Shown one piece after another: positions 2,489 through 37,714 of a DNA stretch of 39,237 nucleotides. The notes under the pieces are model-generated. The model did no database searches, was not told where the DNA came from, and saw only the letters and a list, made by a program, of their open reading frames with translations. The DNA lies in IMG/VR virus record IMGVR_UViG_3300019886_000014, positions 1-39,237 of that record. One strand, written 5' to 3'. Position 1 is the first letter of the stretch, and every line of letters begins with the position of its first letter. Source of the stretch: a virus. The translations under genes were made by a program, and so were the position numbers.

Positions 2489-2496
2489 TTTTCCCT

Positions 2497-2949: not shown

Positions 2950-2958
2950 AATTCACCT

Positions 2959-6630: not shown

Positions 6631-8865
6631 TTAAGCTATCTTTCCTAATCGACAGTCAGCTGTATAATGGAATCTAATATAAGTCTCATCTGTTCCATTT
6701 TGAACGCCAGGAACTGTTTCTATTACGATCTGTGAGTTTGAGAAATAATACACCCCAAACATTCCATTTGATGTTTGCACCCATCCTATAATATTAGGAT
6801 TGGATCCCGTCTGTAATCCTTGTTCATAGGGATAGCCAATGCCAGTTTCAATTACACCTTTGAATGAATATGTATATGATACCGTAGCAGCCGCCCCAGT
6901 TACAGGCGAATATAAAACTACCGTAGGCGCCACTCTTTTAGGTATATCATAAGTAATACCAAACGAACGAGTTGCAATATCAGTATGAGTTCCATCGCTA
7001 GTTGGATTTGCACCCTGTTGCCTAATTAAAAGACCAGGCAAACTAGCTATTCCAGGATTAACACCTTGGTTATAGCTTTTCTCATAGTAGAATTGGCATT
7101 GAGATAAAACATCAGAGGCTGACATAGCCGCTGGTCTTGTTGGCAAATCTCCCTTATTTAAGGATATTGACACAACATTAATGACCGGAGCTGTAGTCCA
7201 CGAAAAAGTAACAACCATGGCAAACTTATCCGTATCAGACAAGCTTCCAGAATCAACCACTTCCCATCCTGAAAATTGGATGTCATTGGACGTTGTTGGA
7301 GTATTGGCAAACACTTGGGACCTTGCCGTATCTAAATTGCTCCTTCCTACTTCTGTCCATCCAGAGGCTGTCTTGGTAAATGTTCCGTCTATAGCAATAG
7401 TTCCCAATGATGCCGGAAGGATAGGAACCACTGAGGCTGCCGTACCTACAAACAGTTGGGCTTTTACGGTAACAACGCCCGCACTGGCTGTTAAGTAAGC
7501 TGAAATATTAGAGCTTAATTTAGTGTAGAGCATCTCTTTTGCCTGAGCTCCAGTAAGATACTGAATCATATACATAGCATCATTGGCTGAAGCTGGAGAA
7601 AGTTGTAAAGCCCCTGTTATGGCGTTTCTAGCAACAGCTACATTTCCTGCCACGCTATTGCATATAGTCTGGTCCCAAACATAATCTGGGGTTCCAGTTA
7701 CTATAGTCTGAACTGCCCCGAACTGAGCGGGATTTAAAGGAAAGTCCCAGGCAGTAAGAAGGCTTGGAATCGGAGAGGTTGCATTTCTTGGAATATAATA
7801 ACTACCCAATAATGCTTGGTCTCTATTGGCCGAGGCTTCATCATATTCAAATACTGGCGCCGCTATTACTCCAGAAGAAGGAACCACCTGCACGCTACTA
7901 ATTTGAACTTTTGAGTTTGGTGAAAAGGATATGTAAATATCTATATACCCAGATGTTCCGCTATTAGCATCATCTGATAAAGGCATAGCTATAACGCTTG
8001 AACCTGTATACATAGTATATGGATCGCCAGTGGGAATAAGCTTATCAAAAATAGTAGTTAAAGGAGTGGCTCCAGAGGATGGATGATAATACATTTGAAT
8101 TGATGTGTCAGCTCCAAGCTCATTTCTAGCCAAAATATTAGCAGATAAAAATACGCTTTTAGCTACCGTGCTAGACCATAGGCCTGAATTCGTATTAAAT
8201 CTTTGAGATAAGTAACAGAAAGTAACTCCAGAGCTTACTTGAACCTCAATAACATAAGGAGGGCTAGTAGGTACTGTAGATGATCCGGCTACGGCAATTC
8301 TTTGAACCGTTACAGTTCCCGTTCCCGATATTACAAAGTTCCAATCTGGAGCAAAAGCAAAAACCTTATCTGTATCTGAGCTTACAGTATAGGTAGTTGT
8401 CTGAGGCGTTAACCCGGGAACATCATTAATAAGAATCTTTGTAAATTGAGGATTTGAGACCTGATTTTGAACTGGTGCTCCAGATTCTCCATCTACCTGG
8501 TCAGCAACCACTCCATTTGGCCATGCCTCACGGGTAAACTGGTCAACCCCAACGTCACTTTCTACATCGACATAATACAAATCGACAGTAATGCCGTCGT
8601 CAAGATAAGGATAGTAATAGATAACAACATTATCGCCTCCATTGTTTTGTGGTGTTCCAACTGAGCTAAGGGTAACTGGGTTATCCAACTCAACATATTG
8701 ATAGTTAGGAGGAGAGCCAGTTAATTGATATACGGTTTTCTTAGTTGATCGCGCAACATCTCTATAAAATGTTAACTTACCCCCAGATAAAGGCAAACCA
8801 GAATCTTTATCGACAAAAATCTGCTCTAACGGTCCGTCAGTTATATAATGTGGATCTAATGCCAT
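6631..8865 (-). CDS. Tailspike-like protein, 744 aa
   Basis: The N-terminus (residues 1-120: TDGPLEQIFVDKDSGLPLSGGKLTFYRD, here cited in part) follows the pattern of the P22-type tailspike head-binding domain, in which a short beta domain carries a GKIY-like strand. Beta-rich repeats with many W/Y residues follow. The C-terminal 130 residues begin with a QCQFYYEKSY motif found at the end of several phage tail proteins. No catalytic site of a glycan hydrolase or lyase is identified. The start codon overlaps the stop of the upstream ejection gene (TAATG), implying coupled translation. Adhesion or receptor contact is inferred. Confidence 0.7.
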   Translation of the reverse strand: MALDPHYITDGPLEQIFVDKDSGLPLSGGKLTFYRDVARSTKKTVYQLTGSPPNYQYVELDNPVTLSSVGTPQNNGGDNVVIYYYPYLDDGITVDLYYVDVESDVGVDQFTREAWPNGVVADQVDGESGAPVQNQVSNPQFTKILINDVPGLTPQTTTYTVSSDTDKVFAFAPDWNFVISGTGTVTVQRIAVAGSSTVPTSPPYVIEVQVSSGVTFCYLSQRFNTNSGLWSSTVAKSVFLSANILARNELGADTSIQMYYHPSSGATPLTTIFDKLIPTGDPYTMYTGSSVIAMPLSDDANSGTSGYIDIYISFSPNSKVQISSVQVVPSSGVIAAPVFEYDEASANRDQALLGSYYIPRNATSPIPSLLTAWDFPLNPAQFGAVQTIVTGTPDYVWDQTICNSVAGNVAVARNAITGALQLSPASANDAMYMIQYLTGAQAKEMLYTKLSSNISAYLTASAGVVTVKAQLFVGTAASVVPILPASLGTIAIDGTFTKTASGWTEVGRSNLDTARSQVFANTPTTSNDIQFSGWEVVDSGSLSDTDKFAMVVTFSWTTAPVINVVSISLNKGDLPTRPAAMSASDVLSQCQFYYEKSYNQGVNPGIASLPGLLIRQQGANPTSDGTHTDIATRSFGITYDIPKRVAPTVVLYSPVTGAAATVSYTYSFKGVIETGIGYPYEQGLQTGSNPNIIGWVQTSNGMFGVYYFSNSQIVIETVPGVQNGTDETYIRFHYTADCRLGKIA

Positions 8866-10766
8866 TAGTTTGTTCCCTCTTTTTTATTATCACTTCGCGA
8901 TGTTCTTATAGCCTGAGAGGTTGCAGGAACCCCAAGCTTTTTAAGCCATTCCACTGTTACTGCTGCTCTTTTTGACGTATCGCTAATTTTATTTAACTGT
9001 CTAATTTTAGCTGGCCAGTTTTTAGATAACCCAAACTTAATTGCAGCTTCATCAAAATCACCGTTTTTGAACATTTTCATAAATGAGTCCAACATCTCTT
9101 TTTTAGATCCACTTCCTACTTGGCCCGCAGCTTCTGAGCTACCTGATGCAATCTGGTCTATAGATTTTGATCTAACATTTTTTAAGACAGAGTGTAGTTC
9201 TTCTAAATTTTTCATTGCATCTTTAGCGCCAACATTTAACTTTTGAACATTTTTATTGTCAGTCGTTGTTTCTGCCAGCATTCTTGATAACTCTTTATGT
9301 GTATCCTTGTTGCCAAAATTGTCTACAAAAGATTTTGAGTCTTTTAATTTTGATTTAAAGAAATCCTCTACTTTCCCTCGAGCCTTGCTTAACTGGGATA
9401 GCCTTAATGCTTCCTCAGCTGGAGCTATATTTTCCTTTATAAAGTTATTTAATTTAGCTCTTTCGTCTTTTGCTTTCTTAATAACATTATGTTGCATCTT
9501 GCTATCAGGAGCGCTATTTAGGCCGGCTATTCTATGGTCATATTGTTGCTTTAATCCTTGAAGATACTCTCCATTTCTTCTTCTATCAGCCACCTTCATA
9601 TGTCCAAACTTTTCTTTCATTTCAGGGGTGCTCATGAAGGCATCTTCCGCCGCAGTAGCAACCTTAGATTTAAATATATCTTTATGCTCATAGTTGGGCT
9701 CTACTCTACTTCTAGAATACCTTTCTAATTGTTCAGCTTTTCGTGATCCTTGCGTCTCGGGGTTATATATTTTGTTTTGAGCTTTTTCAATATTGCTATG
9801 CACAGCTTCAGCCTGTTTCTTCTGTCCCTGCTGAATCAAATCTTTAGAAGCTCCGGTTTTTCCAAGCTTGCCTTGTTCCGAAATTACACTTGAGTGTTGC
9901 GAAGCTTCCTCAGGAGTTAAATGAATTCCCATTTTTCGGCCAGCTCTATAATTTTGCCGTGCCGTCTTATCAATATATGGACTTATTTTTTCTGCATAGT
10001 TTTTAACATGATGGTTTGGATCTAACTTTGGATTTATAAACTTTCCACCAGCTTTATAGGCGGCGGCAGCAGCAGCATATTGGGCAGCCGTAGGCAGTCC
10101 CGCTTCTTTCGCAGCCATAAAGGCAGCACCAGCAGACATAACAGGAGCAATTTGGCTTTTCAACCATCTTGCAGGTTTACTTTTAGACATTAAGGCTTCT
10201 GAAAGCAAATGCATGGGAGCTGTTACCGCAGCAGCAGTTCCACCTTGATTTAAGGCATCCTCAGGATTAAAAGCAGCCGCAACACCACCTTGAAAAGCTG
10301 CATTGCCTAAAGTTCGGCCAGCAAGCCCCATTTTTGCCAGCCTTCCCATTGGCGTCATTGAAGCAAGCATTTGAGGGCCTATTCTAGAAGCTCCTTGTTC
10401 TTCGGCTACATTATGACCGTAATCCTCTGGAGACTCTTGATAATTCACCGGATTGCCGCCGGCTCCTTTGGGAGGAAGGCCTTGTCTCGGGCGATATTGC
10501 TCAGCAGTAGATTGATTTTGCCATGGCAGTCCACCTGTTTCTTGCCCAGGCATGCCAAAGTACTGTTGATACCTATTAGGCTCTTCTTGTTGAGAAGCTT
10601 CCTGTGGTTGAGGCTGTTGGCCCTGACCACCTAATGCTTGGCCCTGGCCACCTTGAGATTCGGAACCAAGATTAGATAGGAATGCGTCTTGCTCAGCAGC
10701 GGGCATCCTGGGGTCAAAATGAACCCTTCGTCCATTTGGGGCAATTCTTTCTATATAATCCGCCAT
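8865..10766 (-). CDS. Ejection-type internal virion protein, 633 aa
   Basis: The protein begins with a short segment (YIERIAPNGRRVHFDPRMPA) seen at the start of several phage internal proteins. Next are a long Q/G/P-rich low-complexity stretch (residues 35-100), an alanine-rich hydrophobic segment (about 125-240) that could span a membrane during ejection, and a long charged helical C-terminal half. Length and order match the P22 gp16 position, third of three ejection proteins. Sequence similarity to gp16 is not obvious by eye, so the assignment rests on architecture and synteny. Confidence 0.65.
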   Translation of the reverse strand: MADYIERIAPNGRRVHFDPRMPAAEQDAFLSNLGSESQGGQGQALGGQGQQPQPQEASQQEEPNRYQQYFGMPGQETGGLPWQNQSTAEQYRPRQGLPPKGAGGNPVNYQESPEDYGHNVAEEQGASRIGPQMLASMTPMGRLAKMGLAGRTLGNAAFQGGVAAAFNPEDALNQGGTAAAVTAPMHLLSEALMSKSKPARWLKSQIAPVMSAGAAFMAAKEAGLPTAAQYAAAAAAYKAGGKFINPKLDPNHHVKNYAEKISPYIDKTARQNYRAGRKMGIHLTPEEASQHSSVISEQGKLGKTGASKDLIQQGQKKQAEAVHSNIEKAQNKIYNPETQGSRKAEQLERYSRSRVEPNYEHKDIFKSKVATAAEDAFMSTPEMKEKFGHMKVADRRRNGEYLQGLKQQYDHRIAGLNSAPDSKMQHNVIKKAKDERAKLNNFIKENIAPAEEALRLSQLSKARGKVEDFFKSKLKDSKSFVDNFGNKDTHKELSRMLAETTTDNKNVQKLNVGAKDAMKNLEELHSVLKNVRSKSIDQIASGSSEAAGQVGSGSKKEMLDSFMKMFKNGDFDEAAIKFGLSKNWPAKIRQLNKISDTSKRAAVTVEWLKKLGVPATSQAIRTSRSDNKKEGTN

Positions 10767-19119: not shown

Positions 19120-21253
19120 TTGTACGCTCAAAAGTATCCGCCATCTTTACTAGATTCCCAATGATTTCTCGAGAGGTTTCAGCATCTTGTTGGGCCGCCT
19201 TTTGATCAAGCTCTAAACCTTGCATCCTAATCTTAGCTATGGTCTCCATAAACTTAGTTTCGGAATCTCTTTCTTTTAGGGAAATATTTGCAGCATCAAC
19301 TCTGGACTTCTCTTGTATAGACATCAGCCCTAACTGTTCAATGCTTGGAGCTTGTAATGCACGCTCGGCTTGAGCCATTTCAATTTCAACCCTTTTTTGA
19401 TCTATCTGAGCTTGTTGTTGCATTTGTTGAATTTGGGCTTCACTTTGCTGGGCTTGTTGCTGAGCCTGTTGTTGCCTTTGTTGCATTAGCTCTTGCTCAA
19501 ATTCGGCGGCTTTCTCTTTAAGACCTTCAATTCCTCGGATTTCAATATTGTCGAGAAGGATTTGCAACCCATGTTCGTTCATAAATTGACCAAAAATAGG
19601 AGATGCATTCATTAGGCTTGTTATTGTGTTAAGTGCAATTTCTTTTTGCATTGCAAAGTTAACGCCAGCCTCAACCTTGACCTCAAGCGTGTTGGGGTCA
19701 TAGTTCATATAGATGCTGCCTTTCTTGTTGATTTCAATATGAGAACGTTTTCCGTCTGGCAACATTATAGGAAGGCTTCGTGGTGTCCTGTAATACTTAG
19801 GTATTAAATCAACTACAATTTGAGCTACCCGATTAAGGGCTTTAATATACCCAACGATATATGGAACTGAGGCGTTGTTGCTTTGTATTGCTGAACGAGC
19901 AAAAGCTATGCCACTCATATTGTCTTTATTTAAACCTGCCGCACCATCATATGAACCAAGAATTGCCTGGGTCATTTCATCCGACATTCTAAATGTTTGT
20001 GATATCTCGGGGGGTATTGGAGTACGGTTAACCTCGCGAGGGGGAGGAAGTTGTACATCTGGACTACGACTGTCCAAGAAATGATTATAAACAAGAGTGT
20101 CCGCTTTTTGAACGTTTTGGTATGCGGTTTGATAATCTTCTGGGATCGACTCGATGGCAACAATAAACTTGTGTTGAATTGTGTTCTCGAGCTCATTCGC
20201 AAGCGATTGACCGGCATAATTTTTTAAACGCTGAATCCCTTTTGCGTGATAAACATACGGTCTTGTCATTTGAGCCGTAGATCCACCCTCTGTTATATTG
20301 ACTGAATTACCGTCAACAAAAACTAGAGGAAGATGCTTAAAATCGGTCTCAACATATTCTAGCACTTGGGACTCACAGAAGCGATATCGACAGATATTTT
20401 CTATTGTTGTCATACGAGGCTCACCTACAGGTAGGGGAGGTTGCTCAATATGACCTTTCTCATTCCATACTTTTATAAAGGCCTTGTACTCTTTTTCCGT
20501 GACTACATGGCCGTTGGATAGCTTGACAATCTTTTCACGCTTGCATTTCTTCTCATAAAAATCACAAACCAAAACGATATCTTCTGTTTCATTTTGGAAT
20601 GACCAACTAAAACCAGAAAGCTCTCTGGTAAATGTCATGTTCGAAGTGGAATCCTTTCCGTACTGCTCCTCAAACGCTTTACGTGTCATGGGTGATAATT
20701 CACCGCAATAACGACCGTCTCCCTTATGAGAATCCCGAGCTAGCGGGTCAAAAAAACAAAGAGTAGGGTCGAAAACTCGTGTAACACAAATCTTTTGCTC
20801 AAAGGACATCTCATTGACATACTCAGTCATAACTTTCATTACTGAGAATCCGCCTGCTAGTTCATCAGTCATGATGTTATAAGCAAGCATGTCGTTAGAT
20901 GACTCTGAAAATATTGCTCCTAAATGGCCTTCTAAAACTTTTAATGTATGAACAAATTCGGGGGTTATTGAGGAAAGGGGAACGCCATCGGCTGCCCTAA
21001 CGGTTAACCCTGGTTGTTGTTTTGCAAACTCTCCTCGCAGTCTGGAAATGTAAGCTTCTAATATGTTAAATTCAATCGTTGGCTTGCCGGTAGTTTGGAG
21101 GGCCGCAACCTCTTGCTGGTTCATCGAAGACTTGAACACGAATCGCATAAAATCGTGAAATCTTTCGACGTTATGGTTGAAGTAGGACTGAGCCTCTTCG
21201 ACCGTTTTTTTTAGATCTTTAATCCGTTCAGAATATTTCTTGGCGATTTCCAT
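19100..21253 (-). CDS. Portal protein, P22 gp1-like, 717 aa
   Basis: This protein forms the dodecameric ring at the packaging vertex. It has the P22-type length (725 in P22), an N-terminal helical region, a central wing with YFDPLARDSHKGDGRYCGE-like sequence (cited in part), and a helical barrel-like C-terminus with QQRQQQAQQQAQQ (residues 590-620) followed by long charged helices. It follows the large terminase gene and overlaps its end. The ATG at 21253 is chosen over 21265 because the AGGGA motif directly abuts the latter and cannot serve it; spacing to 21253 is long (12), so the start is uncertain. Confidence 0.85.
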   Translation of the reverse strand: MEIAKKYSERIKDLKKTVEEAQSYFNHNVERFHDFMRFVFKSSMNQQEVAALQTTGKPTIEFNILEAYISRLRGEFAKQQPGLTVRAADGVPLSSITPEFVHTLKVLEGHLGAIFSESSNDMLAYNIMTDELAGGFSVMKVMTEYVNEMSFEQKICVTRVFDPTLCFFDPLARDSHKGDGRYCGELSPMTRKAFEEQYGKDSTSNMTFTRELSGFSWSFQNETEDIVLVCDFYEKKCKREKIVKLSNGHVVTEKEYKAFIKVWNEKGHIEQPPLPVGEPRMTTIENICRYRFCESQVLEYVETDFKHLPLVFVDGNSVNITEGGSTAQMTRPYVYHAKGIQRLKNYAGQSLANELENTIQHKFIVAIESIPEDYQTAYQNVQKADTLVYNHFLDSRSPDVQLPPPREVNRTPIPPEISQTFRMSDEMTQAILGSYDGAAGLNKDNMSGIAFARSAIQSNNASVPYIVGYIKALNRVAQIVVDLIPKYYRTPRSLPIMLPDGKRSHIEINKKGSIYMNYDPNTLEVKVEAGVNFAMQKEIALNTITSLMNASPIFGQFMNEHGLQILLDNIEIRGIEGLKEKAAEFEQELMQQRQQQAQQQAQQSEAQIQQMQQQAQIDQKRVEIEMAQAERALQAPSIEQLGLMSIQEKSRVDAANISLKERDSETKFMETIAKIRMQGLELDQKAAQQDAETSREIIGNLVKMADTFERTNARTTK

Positions 21254-22796
21254 TATTTTTAGCATTCCCTGCTGTTAGTCGTTCATTAAACTTGTTGTTT
21301 AACTTACTTAAGATTTCACTTCTTGTGTTATCTGTCTTATTAATACTATATACGGTCTTATCTATAAGCGCCAACCGAATTGCGTCGGCAAAAGTGTCAG
21401 CTATGTCATCATGACGATGGCTATCATTGGCTGTAATCGAAGTCATATGCTTGATACAATGGTCTCTATGTTTTGCTCCTTTTGTAAATGAGATTAGCTT
21501 GGAGGCTACGTATGGTTGAATCTCTAAAAATCGTTGGGTTTTGCTACCTGATGCTCTGGTTCTTTCTATTTCTCGGATGGTTATCCCTCTAAGTTCTTTA
21601 AGGATGCTCACAAGGGTAACTCCGGTTGATTTCTTCTCTATTGCTGCCATTAAAGGAGGTTTACGATGTCTAGTACATTCAGTATAGAATTCAACGAAGG
21701 AATCTTTTAGATCTTTTGGTTCAACTCGAAGCTCAACCGTGTCAAGCCAATGGACACCCAATTCACCGGACTTTTTGCCGAAGTTGACAATCTCATAGAC
21801 GCCCCAAAAACTGAAAACTGTTGCGTCATTCCAACTCTTGTCGGTCTCTGCTGTGTCACAGGTAATAAACGTGATAAGCATTTCAGGCTCTTCATCCAAT
21901 GTGATGAACCAGTCGGGTTTGAATAATCCTCCTCCTGCAGGAATCGGATTCTGCTGAAACTGGCTTGCGAAAACGTAAGGGTCTTTGTCTTGCTTGATAA
22001 GCAATGACTCTAACGGAAAAGCTTCGGGGTAGAGTGCATTACCTAATGGGTCGATGCTTTGCAATATAATCCTTTCCCAGTCGTAGCCATCTTTACCCTC
22101 AAGTAGGTATGCGGCAAGGTCTGCCTCATGAACTCTTTGCCCAATGTAGATGTACGGGACATTAACTCCCCGAGCACGCTGTTGTATTGTTTCTCGATAA
22201 TTCTCAATAACGCCTTCACGAATAGTATTAGAATGTGCCTCATCAATCTTATGGCTATCATCCATGATGACAGCACCTGAAAAGCGGTCTAAACCAGGTA
22301 GTCCGCCATCCTGCCCAACAATAGCCCCAGCTGAGCCGAATGCAGCGATACTGCCGCCAGCTGTAGTTTGAAAGAACTCTTTCGCCTTACTATCCCAACG
22401 AATACTAACGTCAAACAAATACCTATAATGCCGTAATCCAATAATACGTTTGATTGTTTCAGTATGTTTGGAAGCCAAGGATTTAGAATAAGAAATATAT
22501 AGATACCTGCTGTCAGGATATTTAGACAGAGTCCAAGCAATCCACATACACAAGAGAGTTGACTTTGAGTGGCCTGGCGGCACATTGATAATAAGTCGTT
22601 GACTTGGTATTTGAAGTCTTGCGGCTCTTGTGAGGGCTCTACAGATTGTGACGACATGCGATTCTCTCCCGATAGGTATAGGTACAATAAAATCTCGTCC
22701 AGTGAGAAGAGGGTAAAAGACTTTGCAGAACTCTAAGAGACTTCCTTGGAGCTCTGCAACCATAGTTTCTTTATCTAAATCTAATGTGCGTTGCAT
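21228..22796 (-). CDS. terL: Terminase large subunit
   Basis: This 522-residue ATP-driven packaging motor has a P-loop at residues 73-80 (PPGHSKST), a Walker B strand near 175-180 (AVIMDD, followed by SHK), and the RNase H-like nuclease start near residue 295 (FITCDTAETD), with further acidic residues towards the C-terminus (HDDIADTFADA). The second acidic residue of Walker B is D instead of the common E. It overlaps the 264-residue gene upstream by 16 bases and the portal downstream, so translation is probably coupled. Confidence 0.93.
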   Translation of the reverse strand: MQRTLDLDKETMVAELQGSLLEFCKVFYPLLTGRDFIVPIPIGRESHVVTICRALTRAARLQIPSQRLIINVPPGHSKSTLLCMWIAWTLSKYPDSRYLYISYSKSLASKHTETIKRIIGLRHYRYLFDVSIRWDSKAKEFFQTTAGGSIAAFGSAGAIVGQDGGLPGLDRFSGAVIMDDSHKIDEAHSNTIREGVIENYRETIQQRARGVNVPYIYIGQRVHEADLAAYLLEGKDGYDWERIILQSIDPLGNALYPEAFPLESLLIKQDKDPYVFASQFQQNPIPAGGGLFKPDWFITLDEEPEMLITFITCDTAETDKSWNDATVFSFWGVYEIVNFGKKSGELGVHWLDTVELRVEPKDLKDSFVEFYTECTRHRKPPLMAAIEKKSTGVTLVSILKELRGITIREIERTRASGSKTQRFLEIQPYVASKLISFTKGAKHRDHCIKHMTSITANDSHRHDDIADTFADAIRLALIDKTVYSINKTDNTRSEILSKLNNKFNERLTAGNAKNNGNRQEIF

Positions 22797-23575
22797 TCTT
22801 TTATGCTAGCAACTATCTCTTCCTTTAGTTTAGCGTTCTCATCAAGTGCAGTCTTGTTTTGCTCTAGAGTTTTAAGAAGCTTCTCCAGGAGATTCTTAAT
22901 CTTATCTTGCTCCGAGATAATTTCCTTTTCTTTAGTTTCTACAACATCTAACAGCTTAGGAGTTGCATAGAATTCGCCTGTTTTAAATTCTTCTATACGC
23001 TCTTTTTCTCTATAAGCCTTAATAAAATCATGATAGTTTCCCTTTGATCCACAACCAAAGCAATGATAAGTTTGCTCTAGTTCGTTAACCGTAAAGGATG
23101 GTGTTTTTTCTTTGTGAAGAGGGCATAGAGCCGTATACTTACCAGGCAACTTTTCTTTTAGCTCAATCTTGCATCTAATGATGTCGACAATATTCACGTC
23201 CTCAGGTTTTAAATTTTTATATATCTCAGACTTCTCGCATTTGATTTCCTTTTCTAGGTCTAGAATCTCGGTAACATAATCATGGTATTCCTGCATAGCG
23301 AGCTCTCTTCTAGCTCTTGCTTTAATAGATGTATCTATTTCACCTCTATGTTTTAAACAAACCAAAAGATCATAACATTCCCCTCTTTGGATTTTGTTTA
23401 TCTCAGCAGCTGCCAAACCAACAATATCTTCTCTAACCTGCACTATATCGCAATCAGCTGATAACTCAATTACAGCTCCAGAAACTGGCAGACCTTTATA
23501 ATTCTCGTACACTTCCTTTGTAAAATACTTTTGACCCTTTTCGTAAAGGGCGGCAAGTTTTTCTTCCTTGGTCAT
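22781..23575 (-). CDS. Primase-type CHC2 zinc finger fused to phage family domain, 264 aa
   Basis: Residues 1-115 belong to the family of four paralogues in this operon (start MTKEEKLAALY; motif RGECYDLLVCLKHRGEID.S). Residues 128-190 are a DnaG-type zinc-binding domain: C151-P-L-H154, KTPSFTVN, and C172-F-G-C175. No TOPRIM or RNA polymerase domain follows, only a coiled coil (about 205-260). It cannot be a whole primase. It may bind primase recognition sites or the host helicase-primase complex. It overlaps terL. Confidence 0.75.
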   Translation of the reverse strand: MTKEEKLAALYEKGQKYFTKEVYENYKGLPVSGAVIELSADCDIVQVREDIVGLAAAEINKIQRGECYDLLVCLKHRGEIDTSIKARARRELAMQEYHDYVTEILDLEKEIKCEKSEIYKNLKPEDVNIVDIIRCKIELKEKLPGKYTALCPLHKEKTPSFTVNELEQTYHCFGCGSKGNYHDFIKAYREKERIEEFKTGEFYATPKLLDVVETKEKEIISEQDKIKNLLEKLLKTLEQNKTALDENAKLKEEIVASIKECNAH

Positions 23576-24027
23576 TAATGAGATGCTCCTATATCTTGTT
23601 CATAGTGGATTTGCTCTATTTCTTTCATATCTTCTTCAAACTGCTTCGTACATATATTCAACTCTTCAGCTTCAATCTTATTCATGTCTTTTTGAAACGC
23701 GGCCGTAAGATCTTTTCTTTTTCTTTCAGCTTCCCTCATGGTTTCATTAACTGAATCCTTAATTCCTGATTCTTTTATCTTTTTAATACAGAATAGAAAG
23801 TCATAAACCCCTTCTCCGTCTATTTGGTCAGCGATATGTTGTGTGAATTGCGTGGTTATCCAGGATGAAGCTTGCAAGACAGCAATAGACGCAACCTTAA
23901 CACGTAAGGACTTCCATAATTCATCTTTGAAATTATCAATCCCCATTCCGTATTCCTTACATATTTCTTGTTCTTTTTTCTTGTATTCAAGATACAAAGC
24001 GGTTAGCTTTTCTTCTTTAGTGCTCAT
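23575..24027 (-). CDS. Paralogue family protein, 150 aa
   Basis: The start MSTKEEKLTALY and the core motif GEGVYDFLFCIKK...KDS..E..REAERKRK match its neighbours at 22781, 24017 and 24960. The protein is charged and largely helical with a glutamate/lysine-rich C-terminus. Its stop shares a base with the next start (TAATG type). It is not a known family to me. The repeated conservation of the YDxLF segment suggests a binding surface. Confidence 0.7.
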   Translation of the reverse strand: MSTKEEKLTALYLEYKKKEQEICKEYGMGIDNFKDELWKSLRVKVASIAVLQASSWITTQFTQHIADQIDGEGVYDFLFCIKKIKESGIKDSVNETMREAERKRKDLTAAFQKDMNKIEAEELNICTKQFEEDMKEIEQIHYEQDIGASH

Positions 24028-24379
24028 TTTCTTCGTTCCTTATTTTTTCAGCCATTGCATTTATTATTTCGTACTTCTTTTTGAAGTTTTCTTGTTCTTT
24101 TTTTCTTCTTGCTTCAGCTTCGTCCGAGCAATCGTATTGGCCTTTATCTTTTAGCACGAACAAAACGTCATAACATCTTCCGGGCTGAATATCGAAGCTA
24201 AAAAGAGCATCAGAAATATTCTTGGCAACATCGTTTGCCAAACCAACGGGACAAGTGTCTGAAGGTATTTCTAAAGCAAACCCGTCATTCTTCTGCCCTA
24301 TATACCTTTTTACCGATTCTTCTGTAAGATATTCGCTAGCATCATCATATAACTTTTTAATTCGCTCTTTCTTAGTCAT
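24017..24379 (-). CDS. Paralogue family protein, 120 aa
   Basis: It starts MTKKERIKKLYDD and contains PGRCYDVLFVLKDKGQYD.SDEAEARRKKE, the clearest copy of the family motif. It closely parallels the first 110 residues of the zinc-finger fusion at 22781. The ATG at 24379 is preferred to an in-frame TTG at 24391 because GAGAG lies upstream. It overlaps the 150-residue gene by 11 bases. Confidence 0.7.
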   Translation of the reverse strand: MTKKERIKKLYDDASEYLTEESVKRYIGQKNDGFALEIPSDTCPVGLANDVAKNISDALFSFDIQPGRCYDVLFVLKDKGQYDCSDEAEARRKKEQENFKKKYEIINAMAEKIRNEENEH

Positions 24380-24578
24380 GTACGCTCTCAATATGTTCTT
24401 TTAGATTGTTAACATGCTTTGATAGGAGCTCCCATCTGGCTATTACTGAGGTAATATCGAATATAGCCTCGTATTCAGAGTCATTCAAAGCCTTTTTTGC
24501 TTCTTTTTGAAATTTAGCCGCATTAAATATAATGCTAGTCAAGTCACTCTCGTACTGCATCAAATCTTTTTCTTTCAT
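24372..24578 (-). CDS. Small helical protein, 68 aa
   Basis: Charged, helical and without recognisable family (LMQYESDLTSIIFNAAKFQKEA, cited in part). It is overlapped at both ends by its neighbours in the operon, which supports translation. No cysteine, signal peptide or membrane segment is present. Confidence 0.6.
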   Translation of the reverse strand: MKEKDLMQYESDLTSIIFNAAKFQKEAKKALNDSEYEAIFDITSVIARWELLSKHVNNLKEHIESVHD

Positions 24579-24970
24579 TCTGATTCCTTACTTATTTTAT
24601 CTAAAACAAACCCAATTGCTTTTTTATGCTGTGCTTCTGCTTTGTCCCATGTTGAGGATCTCTTGCAATATATATCCTTCCCATCATCAAACACCATGGT
24701 TTCAAAGAATAAAGCTCTCATACTTTTGCTGAAACCGTGCGGTGTGCCAAGAAAGACGGTAGAGACTTTGTATTGGTTCATTTCAGTCATACCTACGCGC
24801 TTATTATTTGGTATCGCGCTCATCCATTGGCCCCACTCGATAACGTCATCACACTCAACCGCGACCTTATCTTTTAGAATATACATAACCGGAAAGTTCC
24901 CTTTTTTTAAGATATCACTTACTGATTTTCTTAATTCTTGTTCAGTCAGGGAGGTGTCTTTAGTCTGCAT
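24575..24970 (-). CDS. Conserved phage hypothetical protein, 131 aa
   Basis: It contains ECDDVIEWGQWMS, VSTVFLGTPHGF, LFFETMVFDDGKD and STWDKAEAQHKKA. This series of motifs is familiar from small hypothetical proteins in many phages of proteobacteria; their role is not known to me. The start at 24970 is favoured because GGAG is nine bases upstream; the ATG at 24985 has no Shine-Dalgarno. It overlaps the upstream gene by 11 bases. Confidence 0.7.
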   Translation of the reverse strand: MQTKDTSLTEQELRKSVSDILKKGNFPVMYILKDKVAVECDDVIEWGQWMSAIPNNKRVGMTEMNQYKVSTVFLGTPHGFSKSMRALFFETMVFDDGKDIYCKRSSTWDKAEAQHKKAIGFVLDKISKESE

Positions 24971-25361
24971 CAAAAACGTCTCCATAAAGACGCGTGAAGT
25001 CTTCTCGTATTAGGTCTGCCTTCCTGTTTCTTTCGATCTGAGCTAGAAGCCCCTTCTTTCTTTTCTCGTGAGCCTCTTCGGACTTATCCCAATCTCCTAC
25101 ACGATGAACCGCAAATAGAATCTTATATACTCCAGTCGTATCTACTTTACTTTCTAGTGCTCCGTAAAAAAAGGCAACCGTATCCTCTATGGCTCTTTTT
25201 ATATCCTTTTCTTTATCAAGTTCTATATCGGCATATTTCCAATTTAAGTCTTTATAATCCTCGATGTTTAAATCTGGTATTTCCTCATATAAAGCATTCA
25301 ATCTCTTGCGTAAATATTCTGTACCTTCTTCTTGTTTTGCTTTGATTTCTTCTTCAGTCAT
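24960..25361 (-). CDS. Paralogue family protein, 133 aa
   Basis: This is the most divergent member of the four-gene family: MTEEEIKAKQEEG at the start and DTTGVYKILFAVHRVGDWD.SEEAHEKRKK near residue 80. The ribosome-binding region directly before the ATG (25362-25373) is perfectly complementary over 12 bases to the candidate small RNA at 32227-32368. The start overlaps the stop of the sigma-4-like gene by eight bases. Confidence 0.7.
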   Translation of the reverse strand: MTEEEIKAKQEEGTEYLRKRLNALYEEIPDLNIEDYKDLNWKYADIELDKEKDIKRAIEDTVAFFYGALESKVDTTGVYKILFAVHRVGDWDKSEEAHEKRKKGLLAQIERNRKADLIREDFTRLYGDVFDAD

Positions 25362-25860
25362 AAGCCCTTCTTGTGTTGTTAATTAACCTCATCAATCTGT
25401 TTGCTGAATTTAGCATTCCAGCTGTGCACGTATAGCCGTGTAAGCACACATCTTCTAGTTCCTTGTTTGCAAAATCCAGGAGTTGCTGGGCTTCTACTAT
25501 TATACTCTTTACAATGTTTATGTGAAGATCATTGTCAATGGGGTGAAAGTTTTGAGTCCAATGTCTCATGCCCATTAACATATGAACGTAATGTAGCCTT
25601 GTTATTGCCGTATCTCTTCTTTGACCTATTCTTTCAGAGGAGACGCCATAGTGTGCAGCAACATCTTTTAGATACATCCGTCGCGACATGTCTCGGTTAT
25701 AAAGCATTTTTAAAATCTTGATGTCTTTAATCTTTAGTCTCGTAAAGACTGCTACCTGGCTATCTGTTGGCTCCTCACCTAATTGTTCTCGAATGCGTAT
25801 CCTTGCTAACTCTAAAGTTCGCATAAAGTTAGAACTTTCAGACTTAAGGCTATATCTCAT
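25354..25860 (-). CDS. Sigma region 4-like protein, divergent, 168 aa
   Basis: Residues 42-95 have the layout of sigma factor region 4: a first helix pair (IKDIKILKMLYNRD), then a helix-turn-helix (YLKDVAAHYGVSSERIGQRR). Against the region 4.2 signature VTRERIRQ, E, R, I and the final Q are kept, but two basic positions are changed (S and G). It may therefore bind the RNA polymerase flap or DNA with altered specificity. The C-terminal 75 residues are unassigned. The start ATGA overlaps the stop of the alpha-CTD-like gene. Confidence 0.65.
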   Translation of the reverse strand: MRYSLKSESSNFMRTLELARIRIREQLGEEPTDSQVAVFTRLKIKDIKILKMLYNRDMSRRMYLKDVAAHYGVSSERIGQRRDTAITRLHYVHMLMGMRHWTQNFHPIDNDLHINIVKSIIVEAQQLLDFANKELEDVCLHGYTCTAGMLNSANRLMRLINNTRRAYD

Positions 25861-26276
25861 TTGTCTCTTTTCAACCTCATTCCAAACCTTAGTCCTTCCT
25901 TTTTTAGCGCCGTCTTTAGCTTAACAACATGAATATTAGTTAACCCTGGAACCTTTATTAAATCATCTTCTTTAAGAAGCACTAACTGTCCAACCGTGTA
26001 TAACCCCTGACAAATAAGTAGATTGATTATCTTTCCGCTCACTAAAAGATTTTCAACAGAGTAGGTGCCCAAGTTATCAATAGGGGGTTTAGGCATCATT
26101 TGCTTTTTGACTGCTTTGATGTTGTTCATGAGGAACTGATAGTGCGTCAGTATCTCTTGCCAGTCAGGTGGTTCACCTTTTTTTAACGTGAGCCCCTCGT
26201 GTTTTGCTGCGTTTGCAACATTTATTGCATTATGATGAATCCGAATTAGACATTCCTTTATCTCGCCGTCTTCCAT
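25857..26276 (-). CDS. Stand-alone RNA polymerase alpha-CTD-like protein, 139 aa
   Basis: Residues 74-135 align by eye without gaps to the C-terminal domain of the bacterial RNA polymerase alpha subunit (V..L..S....N.L.....YT(V/I)G.LV....DLIK.P.L...(..)K.ALK..GL..GMRL). The position of E. coli R265, which contacts the UP element, is lysine (K82), and N268 is kept (N85), but G296, K298 and S299 are not. The N-terminal 70 residues are helical and not an alpha N-terminal domain. A generic helix-hairpin-helix protein is the alternative; the GMRL tail argues for alpha-CTD. It lies between two sigma-4-like genes. Confidence 0.65.
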   Translation of the reverse strand: MEDGEIKECLIRIHHNAINVANAAKHEGLTLKKGEPPDWQEILTHYQFLMNNIKAVKKQMMPKPPIDNLGTYSVENLLVSGKIINLLICQGLYTVGQLVLLKEDDLIKVPGLTNIHVVKLKTALKKEGLRFGMRLKRDK

Positions 26277-26279
26277 TAG

Positions 26280-26615
26280 TTATATTCCTTCTTCCTCTTT
26301 TAAAAAATCTCTAAGCGCCTCTTGTTTTGTTGGCTGTCTTAGCCTTCTCAATGCTTTTGCCGCTATTTGTCTTATTCGTTCTCTAGTGACACCTTCTTCA
26401 TTGCTTATATCTTGCAATGTTCTTTTAAACGTTCCGTCTCGATTGTAACGCCAACAAAGAATACGTACTTCTCTTTCTGGAATGTTAAGAGAGCCCGACG
26501 CTTCACTAAAGCTTCTGCTTGCATGATCACCTTTTGATATTTTATCCATAACTCCAAAAAACAACTCAAATGTGGGATCTCCCCAGTCTTCTTCTGTCTC
26601 TTCATGTGAATCCAT
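26280..26615 (-). CDS. Stand-alone sigma70 region 4 protein, 111 aa
   Basis: Residues 44-107 match region 4 of primary sigma factors. The recognition helix VTRERIRQIAAKALRRLR (76-93) and the following QPTKQEALRDFL copy the C-terminus of E. coli sigma70 almost residue for residue; the arginines and glutamate that read the -35 element are all kept. Regions 1 to 3 are absent. It could compete with the host sigma for the beta-flap or for the -35 element. It is three bases from the alpha-CTD-like gene. Confidence 0.85.
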   Translation of the reverse strand: MDSHEETEEDWGDPTFELFFGVMDKISKGDHASRSFSEASGSLNIPEREVRILCWRYNRDGTFKRTLQDISNEEGVTRERIRQIAAKALRRLRQPTKQEALRDFLKEEEGI

Positions 26616-27784: not shown

Positions 27785-28426
27785 TCAATATTCCTTTTTA
27801 TTAACTTCGGCTAATTGCAACTTTAGAGCCATTAACTCTGCTTTAATACTCTCATTCTCGCCCTGTAACTGCTCTACCGCACGTCTATCTCCAAAGATAG
27901 TAGGTGCAAGTTTTGCCGCGTGCCATTTTTTCGTATCAACGATAAGCCGTCTAGAAGCAATGAAGCCAGGATCGATTTTGCTACAGCCTTGTTGGTCAGA
28001 AATATACTCCACTTCCTTCGCAATCTCCTCGCAATCTTCACCCATAAGATATGTTTGATGTTGTTTAGCTAGCTGGTAACGGGTGGAAAACTCAGGATGT
28101 TTCCATCTCCATAGGTTTACCGTTGACTGGTCCGGCATCATCTCATCATCAATGCACATCTGCTTTAAACCTACAGCACTGGATGCAACTTTGTCGATTA
28201 TATAATCCGCAAGCTCCTCTGTGTACGTAGTAGGGCGCCCCATCTTGGGTTTAGATGACTTCTTAGCCTCCTCCATTACGGTCTTCCATGCCTCGCTTTT
28301 CTTTGCGTAATAAGCCTCTTGAGCCTCTGTGTGAACCTTCTTTCGTCCAGGCTTTGGTTCCTCAATATTCTTTCTCAAAGACGGTATTTTGTTTTGGCTT
28401 TTTTCCAACTCGTTTTTTCTTGGCAT
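27785..28426 (-). CDS. terS: Terminase small subunit, Sf6/P22-type
   Basis: This 213-residue DNA-recognition component of the packaging machine has a basic N-terminal tail, GRPTTYTEELADYI (a segment typical of small terminase proteins of this type), a helix-turn-helix with DDEMMPDQSTVNLWRWKHPEFS, and DTKKWHAAKLAPTIFGDR. The ATG at 28426 (MPRKN) has GAGGA upstream; the frame could extend to 28450, where no Shine-Dalgarno is visible. Unusually, about 5 kb of small genes separate it from terL. Confidence 0.8.
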   Translation of the reverse strand: MPRKNELEKSQNKIPSLRKNIEEPKPGRKKVHTEAQEAYYAKKSEAWKTVMEEAKKSSKPKMGRPTTYTEELADYIIDKVASSAVGLKQMCIDDEMMPDQSTVNLWRWKHPEFSTRYQLAKQHQTYLMGEDCEEIAKEVEYISDQQGCSKIDPGFIASRRLIVDTKKWHAAKLAPTIFGDRRAVEQLQGENESIKAELMALKLQLAEVNKKEY

Positions 28427-28634
28427 CTTTTGTGTCCTCAGGTTTCTCATCTATCTTAGTAGGAGGGATTCTTTCTATTATACCCTTACCAAGGCACATT
28501 GGACAGTCAGTTAACGTACCTCCTGAGTTATCAAAAGACCATGCGCCCCTTACTTTGTATAGCTTTTTTCTCCCTCTGCAGCGTATACATCTTCTCTTGC
28601 CATCATCAATTTCGGGTCCCTTTCTTAAATCCAT
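28362..28634 (-). CDS. Zinc-knuckle protein, DnaJ-like CxxCxG repeats, 90 aa
   Basis: C-I-R-C-R-G (about residue 16) and C-P-M-C-L-G-K-G (about residue 44) form a two-knuckle zinc site resembling half of the DnaJ cysteine-rich domain. A basic lysine-rich tail follows. It overlaps the small terminase gene by 65 bases. The start at 28634 has AAGGAATTT upstream. It may bind single-stranded nucleic acid or unfolded protein; no function is established. Confidence 0.7.
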   Translation of the reverse strand: MDLRKGPEIDDGKRRCIRCRGRKKLYKVRGAWSFDNSGGTLTDCPMCLGKGIIERIPPTKIDEKPEDTKDAKKKRVGKKPKQNTVFEKEY

Positions 28635-28722
28635 TTTAAATTCCTTTTTTGTATATACATACCAAGACTCTATCACAGGGCTATGCACAAAATAAAATAT
28701 TTTAATTATTTGCAAATAAATA

Positions 28723-30376: not shown

Positions 30377-30421
30377 CGCGATCTAAATAATGGTTAGAAA
30401 ATTAGATCGCGTTTTGTTTTT
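30377..30421 (+). terminator. Rho-independent terminator, plus strand
   Basis: CGCGATCTAA (30377-30386) pairs with TTAGATCGCG (30402-30411), followed by TTTTGTTTTTT. It ends rightward transcription from early promoter 1, so that RNA runs antisense through the whole VRR-NUC gene. On the minus strand the stem has no U-run after it. Confidence 0.75.
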
Positions 30422-30603
30422 TACACTGCTACTTCAAATAGAGCAGGATCGATAGGACCTAGGTCGCCTTCCATTACAATTAACATTGTCAATCTAGACA
30501 AGCCATCTCCTAAATCTTCTAGTAAATAGTTCCCGCTGTATGCGAACTCTCCAGCTGCTCCACCTGATACAGCTTTAACTTCTGATAAACATAAATCTTT
30601 CAT
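30421..30603 (-). CDS. Double-glycine-leader peptide, 60 aa
   Basis: The N-terminus MKDLCLSEVKAVSGG matches the class II bacteriocin/microcin leader: L at -12, E at -8, V at -7, V at -4, G at -2 and -1. Cleavage would leave AAGEFAYSGN..., an acidic peptide of 45 residues without cysteine. The start at 30603 is preferred because AGGAG is seven bases upstream; ATGs further upstream are too near to it. Export would need a host peptidase-containing ABC transporter; none is encoded here. Confidence 0.65.
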   Translation of the reverse strand: MKDLCLSEVKAVSGGAAGEFAYSGNYLLEDLGDGLSRLTMLIVMEGDLGPIDPALFEVAV

Positions 30604-30664
30604 AATCATTCTCCTATTTTGTTTAATGTACCTGATTGAAACCCAATATTGCAAATGCTTGCGT

Positions 30665-32971: not shown

Positions 32972-33000
32972 TTGACACTCGTAACACGGTGTTATATAAT
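32972..33000 (+). promoter_or_regulatory. Early promoter 2 with palindromic operator
   Basis: TTGACA (32972-32977), 17 bases and TATAAT (32995-33000): a perfect sigma70 consensus. The same palindrome TAACAC-G-GTGTTA occupies 32982-32994, just before the -10. It drives the recombination operon starting at 33051. Confidence 0.85.
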
Positions 33001-33492: not shown

Positions 33493-33656
33493 TGTTATAT
33501 AAATATTTAATTTGCTTCGTACTATGGGCAATTATTTTGTACTTCTTTATAAGCAAAGGATACAAAGACGGAGTGAACATTAGAGCTATAGCTTTGAAAG
33601 AAGCCAAAGAAGAGTTCATGAAAGAAATGAAAGAAAAGGAGGAGCTTAACAAATGA
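33492..33656 (+). CDS. Small membrane-anchored protein, 54 aa
   Basis: Residues 5-20 form a membrane segment (YLICFVLWAIILYFFI), followed by a long charged helix rich in lysine and glutamate. It is overlapped by the stop of the previous gene and by the ATGA start of the nuclease gene. It may form a pair with the preceding 56-residue protein. Confidence 0.6.
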   Translation: MLYKYLICFVLWAIILYFFISKGYKDGVNIRAIALKEAKEEFMKEMKEKEELNK

Positions 33657-34573
33657 GCTTTACTTTTGAGCAACAAGAGCAAAGATTAAATCATATTTGC
33701 GGCTCTGATGCTGCGGTAATATGTGGAATCTCCCCTTGGAACAACATAATTAAACTATGGCAAGAAAAGACAAGATTAAAAGTTTCTGAAGATATATCTG
33801 ATGATCCAAGAGTTAAAGCGGGCATAATGCTTGAGCCTATCGTGAGGGCTTGGTTTGAAGATGTAACAGGATTAAAAGTTGATGTTCACGCTGAGTTTAT
33901 AGAGCACGGAACGCTTTCATTTCTTGGAGGCCACGTTGATGGCTTAGTAGGTGATGATGCAATATTTGAAGCCAAAACTGCCGGCTACGATGATGGATGG
34001 GGAGCTCAAGGTGAAAACATAATTCCAGATCATTATCTTATGCAAGTTGCGCATTATATGATGATTACAGACAGAAAAAAGGCTTATGTAGCAGTCCTAA
34101 TTCGCGGTAGCGATTTTAGACACTATGTTATAGAAAGAAATTATCAGCTTGAAAAAATGATAATTAATCAATATAAAAAGTTCTGGGAAAATGTCTTAAC
34201 AAATATTGCACCGGAGCCTAAAAATGGAGACGAAGTTCTAAGCTTATATGGGTATAAATCTATTGCAGAACCTATTGTAGCAGACGGGGATATACAAAAT
34301 GATTTAGACACACTGGAAAACATAAAGCAGACTCTCAAAAAGGCTAATGAAGTTAAGGATAAATTAGAAGATAGAATAAAAATATACATGGGGCAAAAGG
34401 ATACATTGCTAACACTAAATGGTAAAATAGCTGCAACCTGGAAACAGGCACAAGAATCAGTTAGGTTTGATCTAACTGCTTTTAAAAAAGAAAACAAAGA
34501 GCTGCATGATAAATATGTAAAATCATCGACAGCTTCAAGAAGATTCGTATTAAAACAACAAGAAGGGCTTTAA
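33653..34573 (+). CDS. YqaJ/lambda-Exo family exonuclease, 306 aa
   Basis: This protein probably resects double-stranded DNA ends to give single strands for RecT. Signatures are GSDAAVICGISPW (residues 17-29), LEP with E61, GGHVDG with D96, and E106-A-K108, the metal-binding PD-(D/E)xK set. A coiled segment (260-300) ends the protein. AGGAGG lies before the ATGA start, and recT follows after three bases. Its stop codon lies in the second copy of the small-RNA target. Confidence 0.9.
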   Translation: MSFTFEQQEQRLNHICGSDAAVICGISPWNNIIKLWQEKTRLKVSEDISDDPRVKAGIMLEPIVRAWFEDVTGLKVDVHAEFIEHGTLSFLGGHVDGLVGDDAIFEAKTAGYDDGWGAQGENIIPDHYLMQVAHYMMITDRKKAYVAVLIRGSDFRHYVIERNYQLEKMIINQYKKFWENVLTNIAPEPKNGDEVLSLYGYKSIAEPIVADGDIQNDLDTLENIKQTLKKANEVKDKLEDRIKIYMGQKDTLLTLNGKIAATWKQAQESVRFDLTAFKKENKELHDKYVKSSTASRRFVLKQQEGL

Positions 34574-34580
34574 AAAATGA
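34559..34580 (+). repeat. 22-bp repeat covering a ribosome-binding site, copy 2
   Basis: Identical to 33033-33054. It covers the last codons and stop of the exonuclease gene, the recT Shine-Dalgarno (AAGAAGGG) and the recT ATG (34577). The first 15 bases are the perfect complement of 32306-32320. Confidence 0.9.
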
Positions 34581-35392
34581 GTGACGTTACAAGAATTAAT
34601 AATGAAATCCCAGCAATGGACAGACTACAAAAACTAAAACCTTATTTGGATAAGATACTTCCAGAAGGAATGAAGTCAGATAGGCTAATTATGTCTGCAG
34701 TGGCTGAGTTGAGAAATACGCCGGCATTAAATAGTTGTTGTCCTAAATCAATCTGCGGTGCTATACTCCGGGTTGCTCATATGGGACTTGAGGTGAATTC
34801 TTTACTAGGGAAGGTCTATTTAATCCCTAGAAAAGGAGAAGCTACTTTGATGTTAGGTTACCGTGGAATGATGGATCTCGTAAGAAGATCTCCAGACGTA
34901 TTGTCCGTTAAGGCTGGCTGCGTATATGAAAATGATTTTTTTGAATTTGAAGATGGCACTTCCCCAAGCATTAAACATGTAAGAAAGTGGGCAGATAGAG
35001 GTTTGTTTTTAGGTGTATTTGCCATGGTTGTTCTAAGAAATGGTTATACACAGTTTGAGCTTATGTCTAAAGAAGAAGTAGATAAGATTAAAACTCGAGG
35101 GGTTAACGCCGGCGGATCTGGTGCCTGGGTCACAGATTATAACGAAATGGCAAAAAAGACCGTCATTAGGCGTCTATTTAAAACGGCTCCGTCTTCAATG
35201 GAGCTTGGAATGGCTATAGAATTAGATGAGCAGTACGAAAGAAAAGAGCAAAATCTTAAAGCCGTTCTTAAAGAATGCGGCGTTGATGATGAAGATGTTG
35301 ACGGGGAAGTGGTAGCTGAGCAGCCAAAGACTCAACAACAAAAACTAATAGATAAGCTTACGAGTATGGAGAATGAGAAAAATGAGACTTAA
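34577..35392 (+). CDS. recT: RecT-family single-strand annealing protein, 271 aa
   Basis: It anneals complementary single strands during phage recombination. The RecT core is visible: AELRNTPALNSCCPKSICGAIL-type sequence, LEVNSLLGKVYLIPR, TLMLGYRGMMDLVRRSP, and AKKTVIRRLFKTAP. The length is usual for the family. Its partner exonuclease is just upstream. Translation is likely controlled by the small RNA whose target overlaps its ribosome-binding site. Confidence 0.92.
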   Translation: MSDVTRINNEIPAMDRLQKLKPYLDKILPEGMKSDRLIMSAVAELRNTPALNSCCPKSICGAILRVAHMGLEVNSLLGKVYLIPRKGEATLMLGYRGMMDLVRRSPDVLSVKAGCVYENDFFEFEDGTSPSIKHVRKWADRGLFLGVFAMVVLRNGYTQFELMSKEEVDKIKTRGVNAGGSGAWVTDYNEMAKKTVIRRLFKTAPSSMELGMAIELDEQYERKEQNLKAVLKECGVDDEDVDGEVVAEQPKTQQQKLIDKLTSMENEKNET

Positions 35393-35736: not shown

Positions 35737-35991
35737 ATGAACATAATCAACAATGTGCATTTAAATTATATATCAGGTGCGGGCTTAAAGCTTTCTGGCG
35801 AGGATTATTCCTCAGAAAAGAATTATAGTTATGTAGCTTTTACTCCTCAATTTGACGGTTCGTTGCCTCCTGAGCTTCAACAAAGGATAGATGCCGGAGA
35901 AAGCTACCATAGTATGCGAAGCGACTTATTGGCCTATAGTCATTACACAATGATTATGCAGGCTATTTATCCGGAGCTATACACAAGATGA
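35737..35991 (+). CDS. Bacteriocin-like peptide A with ISGAG leader, 84 aa
   Basis: The leader MNIINNVHLNYISGA matches the double-glycine type (G at -2, A at -1, I at -4, L at -7, I at -12). It shares H-L..ISGAG with peptide B at 36286. Cleavage after A15 leaves GLKLSGEDYSS..., 69 residues, rich in tyrosine and serine, without cysteine. AAAGGAAAAATT precedes the ATG. The mature part is not a known bacteriocin. Confidence 0.65.
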   Translation: MNIINNVHLNYISGAGLKLSGEDYSSEKNYSYVAFTPQFDGSLPPELQQRIDAGESYHSMRSDLLAYSHYTMIMQAIYPELYTR

Positions 35992-36305
35992 CGACTGAAA
36001 TAGATAACAAACCAACTGAATTTTTTATTCCCGGAACAGAAGAGCCCGGGCTAATGGCTTTTGATTTTTTAAAAGCAGCAAACACTGCTGTTCATATTAT
36101 GTCAGAACAGATAGAAGTTGTGAGCTCAGAAAATATAGAAACTCAAAAAGAGTTAATTATGTCTACGGTTGTAATGCACGCAGTACTTTGTACAATTATA
36201 AAAAATTACACTACATTTGATAGACCATCTTTATTTGAGGCTACAAACCTAACAAAGATTAGCGAAACTGATTCTAGGGAAGAATATGAAAAAATTAAAC
36301 ATTGA
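35988..36305 (+). CDS. Hypothetical protein in the peptide island, 105 aa
   Basis: Not recognised. Soluble and helical (FLKAANTAVHIMSEQIEVV; ELIMSTVVMHAVLCTIIKNY) with one cysteine. The start ATGA overlaps the stop of peptide A, and its end overlaps the start of peptide B, so all are co-translated. It could be an immunity or accessory protein; the sequence does not decide. Confidence 0.65.
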   Translation: MTTEIDNKPTEFFIPGTEEPGLMAFDFLKAANTAVHIMSEQIEVVSSENIETQKELIMSTVVMHAVLCTIIKNYTTFDRPSLFEATNLTKISETDSREEYEKIKH

Positions 36306-36591
36306 GCATTTATCTTTAATTTCTGGTGCCGGAAAATGGTCAGTTGATGTTCCAACTTGGGGCGATTTGCCCTATAGCCCTATAGATTCTGCACCGCCTT
36401 CGAGCTCGCAAATTGATTACGGACTCATGGCAATATTAATGGGCAATGCCGCATTTTTTGGGTGCCTAAATGGGGCTCGCACGGGTGGGGTTTATGGTTG
36501 TGTCGCAGGTGGCGCTTATGCAGGAATTGGAACTATGACCGCATTTATTTTTGCAGATTCATATAAAATGTATACGGACAATAAAAAATAG
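36286..36591 (+). CDS. Bacteriocin-like peptide B with ISGAG leader, 101 aa
   Basis: The leader MKKLNIEHLSLISGA has L at -12, L at -7, I at -4, G at -2, A at -1. The mature part ends in a hydrophobic glycine-zipper region: G67, G71, G75 and G76, G80 at four-residue spacing (residues 50-90). Cysteines at 60 and 72 could form a disulphide. This is the pattern of pore-forming class II bacteriocins and large microcins. TAGGGAAGAAT precedes the ATG. Confidence 0.75.
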   Translation: MKKLNIEHLSLISGAGKWSVDVPTWGDLPYSPIDSAPPSSSQIDYGLMAILMGNAAFFGCLNGARTGGVYGCVAGGAYAGIGTMTAFIFADSYKMYTDNKK

Positions 36592-37685: not shown

Positions 37686-37714
37686 TTGACAGTTGGGGCT
37701 TGTAAATTTATAAT
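37686..37714 (+). promoter_or_regulatory. Perfect sigma70 promoter without a gene downstream
   Basis: TTGACA (37686-37691), 17 bases, TATAAT (37709-37714). It does not carry the early operator. No convincing reading frame follows for about 1.4 kb on this strand, but a structured RNA does. Confidence 0.8.

Follow-up and report, generated by a model that had tools for sequence, protein, structure and literature searches.

A phage packaging operon encodes small proteins that carry the two upstream promoter-contact domains of RNA polymerase, region 4 of sigma-70 (sigma-4) and the C-terminal domain of the alpha subunit (αCTD), and in two related phages these domains are joined through a long helix in a single protein. 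The same order of sigma-4, helix and αCTD recurs in elements of Bacteroidota. At close to even confidence, we read the cassette as a set of adaptors that would dock on host RNA polymerase and upstream promoter DNA and redirect initiation. The window, by which we mean the whole stretch of DNA analysed, is a virus record of 39,237 bp whose terminase, portal and capsid genes mark it as a tailed phage.

Position of the cassette in the packaging operon

The cassette lies in the variable interval between the genes for the small (TerS) and large (TerL) terminase subunits, in a packaging operon of densely packed small genes (Table 1). Strand and coordinates of the three reading frames agree with those given in an earlier, sequence-only reading of this DNA. 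That reading had spoken of early promoters, and an early placement is not supported by the position of the genes between the terminase genes. It had also stressed that they are adjacent and translationally coupled. The close spacing is confirmed, with a gap of 3 nt between the sigma-4a and αCTD genes and an overlap of 4 nt between the αCTD and sigma-4b genes, but such packing is general across the operon, so that coupling by itself is not special. No tRNA genes were found in the window.

Table 1 Features of the cassette and its surroundings, in window coordinates.
Feature	Position	Strand	Description
Sigma-4a	26280..26615	-	111 aa, stand-alone sigma-70 region 4; region 4 at residues ~45-107
αCTD protein	25857..26276	-	139 aa; helical N-terminus poorly modelled, C-terminal RNA polymerase αCTD
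αCTD fold proper	25860..26084	-	Residues 65-139 (VIA model range)
Sigma-4b	25354..25860	-	168 aa; residues ~38-91 form a degenerate region 4, followed by an unassigned C-terminal part
Terminase small subunit, upstream boundary of variable interval	27785..28450	-	Pfam Sf6_terminase 1.2e-19; phrog_1482 2.5e-27
Terminase large subunit, downstream boundary of variable interval	21228..22796	-	phrog_38 1.6e-82
36-bp element resembling a promoter or pac site, immediately ahead of packaging operon	28647..28682	-	Single copy per genome

TerL relatives in IMG/VR are 65-93% identical to the window protein, except for two remote ones at 26%, and comparison of the genomes found in this way identifies the TerS-TerL interval as a variable cassette. 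The cassette is accessory, being absent from several close relatives. A search of 84,980 genomes found no relative of TerL or of the linker-αCTD part of the L010 fusion described below. That the DnaB and αCTD sequences look proteobacterial is only an impression.

The 36-bp element in front of the operon scores 39-48 in six genomes, compared with at most 13 elsewhere in those genomes, and is a poor match to the sigma-70 consensus. We rejected it as a cassette-specific promoter since its presence does not co-vary with the cassette: it is missing from G006 and G019, and relatives without the cassette have it, which leaves no support for such a role. A role as late promoter and one as packaging (pac) site are equally possible. 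Near-perfect and perfect consensus promoters were found on the opposite (+) strand at 28723, 32972 and 37686, the latter two being perfect TTGACA-17-TATAAT promoters (32972-33000 and 37686-37714).

Several other features of the window were noted. One unnamed protein family (MTKEEKIxAL...) has four tandem members on the minus strand (24960-25361, 24017-24391, 23575-24027 and 22781-23575), and in the last of these the family sequence is joined to a CHC2 zinc-ribbon primase domain; in the related contig L007, a member of this family is joined to sigma region 4. On the plus strand, positions 33653-35392 encode a pair of RecE-like exonuclease and RecT-like annealing protein. Small proteins with a leader-like start ending in GG or GAG (e.g., MKKLNIEHLSLISGAG) are encoded at 36286-36591 (+), 35737-35991 (+) and 30421-30654 (-), and a further one in L051 (5315-5521, -); these starts resemble the double-glycine export leaders of bacteriocin-type peptides.

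Sigma-4 and αCTD folds in the window proteins

Sigma-4a is a stand-alone region 4, as had been claimed. It matches Pfam Sigma70_r4 (PF04545) with an E-value of 2.4e-11 and 43.4 bits against a cut-off of 24.1, and it aligns without gaps to region 4 of E. coli RpoD in the PDB (E = 4e-12), including 'VTRERIRQIAAKALRRLRQP'. Equivalents of Arg584, Glu585, Arg588 and Gln589 in the -35-reading helix are retained, as is the basic C-terminal helix. The match of sigma-4b to the same Pfam family (E = 1.3e-3, 18.7 bits) stays below the cut-off of 24.1, but the protein matches phrog_351, a phage sigma factor family, at 2e-4 and can be aligned to other phage sigma-4 proteins. Its -35-reading residues are altered, in line with its earlier description as a degenerate region 4. 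Pfam gave no match to sigma regions 2 and 3 in either protein; thus, neither is a complete sigma factor.

Residues 61-136 of the αCTD protein align without gaps to the E. coli αCTD (E = 1.3e-5, phmmer against the PDB). Because its match to Pfam RNA_pol_A_CTD (PF03118; E = 1.5e-3, 18.6 bits) falls below the cut-off of 23.8, evidence from the fold was required. The AlphaFold2 (AF2) model has a pLDDT of ~85 over residues 72-133 and is poor in the N-terminal half. The Foldseek matches listed for this model are RNA polymerase alpha subunits, with TM-scores of 0.76-0.92 against isolated-domain targets, and VIA-align superimposed 75 residues on 4mex_A with a Z-score of 13.4 and an rmsd of 2.0. All of the best structural matches, with Z-scores near 13, are αCTDs of RNA polymerase. 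The modelling thus indicates that the 139-residue protein carries a genuine αCTD fold. The sequence-only reading had named a purely generic helix-hairpin-helix result as grounds for abandoning the assignment; the fold comparisons by Foldseek and VIA instead gave RNA polymerase alpha and rule out the generic identity (HHH_5 appears weakly, for L011). Only the C-terminal domain of alpha is matched in these 139 residues, and the alpha N-terminal domain, which serves core assembly, is absent.

In E. coli numbering, the DNA-contact set of the αCTD comprises Arg265, Asn268, Gly296, Lys298 and Ser299. The window protein has Lys at the position of Arg265 and keeps Asn268, both as previously noted; the replacement of Gly296, Lys298 and Ser299 by Thr, Ile and His had been missed. 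With these three residues gone and Lys in place of Arg265, DNA binding by the window copy is doubtful.

Natural fusions in related phages and in Bacteroidota elements

In L010, positions 2446-3228 encode a single protein of 260 residues that consists of sigma-4, a long helix and an αCTD, with matches to Sigma70_r4 (7e-8) and RNA_pol_A_CTD (4e-8) that both exceed the Pfam cut-offs. Its AF2 model has the same order, with sigma-4 (pLDDT ~90) followed by a helix at residues 110-182 and then the αCTD. L011 encodes a free sigma-4 followed by a fusion of 256 residues (7466-8236) in which a degenerate sigma-4 and a long helical linker precede an αCTD that scores above the Pfam cut-off (3e-12). The two fusions are 31% identical, the conserved linker included, so that an assembly error in a single contig is no explanation. 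A search driven by the alignment returned, among the matches listed, only L010 itself. That the two parts of the polymerase are functionally linked, as had been proposed from their adjacency, can now be based on these natural fusions and on those in the Bacteroidota elements described below. The proposed set of three proteins is not borne out: relatives have sigma-4 alone, sigma-4 plus a fusion, or a single fusion, and the three genes are therefore not the conserved unit.

Further variation is seen in the same interval. In L007, sigma-4 is joined to a different family of cassette proteins, and L025 carries an isolated sigma-4. L003 and L011 encode an αCTD-like protein of 130 residues directly before TerL, which has lost Arg265 and Asn268 and is under strong purifying selection (dN/dS 0.06). 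An αCTD protein also precedes the terminase in L001, an unrelated phage contig. Among the 11 genomes of the window's phage clade in which the interval was seen, 6 are positive for sigma-4, and all 4 αCTD-positive genomes are among them (Fisher p ~0.045; ~0.12 without the distant L012 and L013). The occurrence of αCTD only alongside sigma-4 in this clade is suggestive only. A putative additional sigma-4 in G008 (9753-9863) was rejected, as the reading frame reads as an HNH-type endonuclease with a helix-turn-helix (HTH) tail. Just upstream of TerL in L010 (4012-4479, +), a reading frame of 155 residues looks, by eye, like a P4-type integrase cut down to its N-terminal portion, the catalytic domain missing.

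Using the L011 linker plus αCTD as a tblastn query, we found a second setting for this architecture. The human-gut phage records MT835636 and MT837876 encode proteins with the order HTH_17, sigma-4, helix and αCTD, and the IMG/VR contigs L062 and L078-L084 hold further copies, with integrases and an S24-type regulator in the vicinity. The gut prophage-like contigs with this order are L058, L060, L062 and L078-L084. On the Chryseobacterium plasmid NZ_CP034172, typed as mobilizable, WP_124785686.1 consists of sigma-4 followed by an αCTD, both above the Pfam cut-offs. The RNA_pol_A_CTD cut-off is exceeded by the αCTD copies of L058, L060 and L085. Pairs of gut fusions mostly have dN/dS values of 0.09-0.23, the value of 0.82 for L081/L084 being based on very few changes. 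The common order of sigma-4, helix and αCTD could reflect shared descent or convergence. L061 was rejected as a fusion relative because it is an ordinary full-length rpoA, and nearly all other plasmid matches to the αCTD, like those in Salmonella and Acinetobacter phage records, are host rpoA or chromosome-sized records. A gut phage protein in L059 (5731-6468, +) has a possible transmembrane start, a coiled coil and a C-terminal αCTD above the Pfam cut-off (1.6e-5), without sigma-4.

Arg265, Asn268, Gly296 and Lys298 are retained in all four Bacteroidota-type proteins aligned, for which DNA binding is therefore likely. The αCTD of the L011 fusion retains the same four residues, and that of L010 has Thr at position 265. 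The -35-reading residues are altered in the sigma-4 parts of both fusions; L010 retains the KALRKLRQPS helix. DNA reading and protein contact may thus be split between copies inside one phage, to judge from these alignments.

Possible action on host RNA polymerase and comparison with known systems

From the domains, the fusions, the retained residues and the selection on relatives, we infer binding, promoter choice and timing as follows. The sigma-4 module would dock at the site of host sigma region 4, on the beta-flap and -35 element, or contact the host αCTD. The αCTD module would take up a neighbouring position, bound to upstream DNA or to host sigma region 4, much as the host αCTD does in PDB entry 3n97. 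Covalently joined, or supplied separately from adjacent genes, the modules could act as a two-point clamp through which polymerase is recruited or re-targeted, the most likely targets being phage promoters active in replication and packaging. Degenerate copies (sigma-4b and the sigma-4 portions of the fused proteins) have probably retained protein contacts and lost DNA reading.

Several pieces of evidence speak for adaptors: (i) The L010 and L011 fusions have their domains in the order also found in the Bacteroidota gut elements and on the Chryseobacterium plasmid. (ii) The Bacteroidota-type proteins retain four DNA-contact residues, and the -35 helix of the window's sigma-4a is intact. (iii) The αCTD is confined to sigma-4-positive genomes in the clade. 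(iv) Purifying selection acts on the second αCTD-like protein and on most gut-fusion pairs. Against adaptors stand the lost DNA contacts of the window αCTD, the lost -35-reading residues of the L010 sigma-4, the 36-bp element that does not follow the cassette, the accessory nature of the cassette and the high dN/dS of L081/L084, on few changes. Some of these losses would suit a set of decoys or inhibitors, in which free modules cover the beta-flap, the -35 and UP DNA or the surfaces contacted by activators and in this way stop initiation by the host, with polymerase not guided to phage promoters. We consider this less likely than adaptors. Separate modules that lack core-binding sigma-2 or alpha-NTD cannot form a holoenzyme on their own, degenerate DNA contacts in the window αCTD, sigma-4b and the L010 sigma-4 are compatible with protein decoys, and P7 of phage Xp10 is an example of a known phage inhibitor of initiation that acts via the sigma factor (PMC3985653, PMC5053324). 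However, sigma-4a retains its promoter-reading residues, and the Bacteroidota fusions keep the main αCTD contacts to DNA and add a specific HTH, which fits targeted regulation better than blanket blocking.

The neighbouring genes might point to a different role. They are small replication and packaging genes (the terminases, a CHC2 zinc-finger primase fragment and, in relatives, a DnaB-like helicase), and the 130-residue αCTD-like proteins lack Arg265 and Asn268, so the cassette might encode ordinary DNA-binding regulators or replication or packaging accessories that borrowed HTH and αCTD folds and gave up contact with RNA polymerase. We find this improbable, as generic DNA binding would not predict that two promoter-contact modules of the polymerase are fused repeatedly, in identical order, in separate lineages. 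Captured fragments of host rpoD and rpoA in decay would account for the degenerate copies and the patchy distribution, but the reading frames are intact and operon-packed, dN/dS is low for most homologue pairs and the fusion architecture is conserved, all of which makes debris very improbable. Slightly more tentatively than the adaptor reading itself, we propose that a class of transcription factor with the make-up sigma-4/long helix/αCTD, which re-targets host RNA polymerase, is employed by phages and other mobile elements from two or more bacterial groups, either independently or as a shared device. A single small protein would then mimic everything with which the polymerase grips the upstream part of a promoter.

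The domains are identical in kind to the host αCTD and sigma region 4 seen on UP and -35 DNA in 3n97, to whose αCTD chains the window and L010 αCTD models align. The host carries them on two large subunits, whereas in the phage they are small proteins or a fused chain without core-binding parts. Stand-alone phage αCTD and stand-alone phage sigma-4 proteins are already annotated in databases. ORF40 of Erythrobacter phage vB_EliS-L02 is annotated as a stand-alone phage αCTD with no function given (PMC9127768); it shares the fold with the window protein and differs in being an annotation alone. That genome paper is the one account of phage αCTD homologues, and no functional study was found, in the open-access literature, which likewise yielded no report of a sigma-4/αCTD pairing or fusion. 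Rhodococcus phage Finch has both domains in separate, distant genes (αCTD at 116 kb, sigma-4 match at 89 kb). WP_124785686.1, named 'DNA-directed RNA polymerase subunit alpha C-terminal domain-containing protein', has sigma-4 and then αCTD in one protein, like the phage fusions, but resides on a Bacteroidota plasmid and has a longer N-terminal part.

If the adaptor reading is correct, these proteins would offer a natural minimal tool for studying αCTD/sigma-4 cooperation, possibly a compact promoter-targeting part, and a testable function for 'alpha C-terminal domain' proteins listed unexplained in databases. The fusions point to a scarcely studied route by which mobile elements could steer or block host transcription. 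In phage T4, gp33 and gp55 are small factors at the sigma-4/beta-flap site, and AsiA and MotA bind host sigma-4; the cassette proteins resemble them as small phage factors that would act at this site. Sigma appropriation by AsiA and MotA is the subject of PMC6755090. The takeover of transcription by phages has long been a classic model, and its known factors bind host sigma-4 or substitute whole sigma factors, whereas in the phage studied here sigma-4 itself is phage-supplied, together with an αCTD. A factor bearing both upstream promoter-contact domains would thus be a new solution to transcription takeover.
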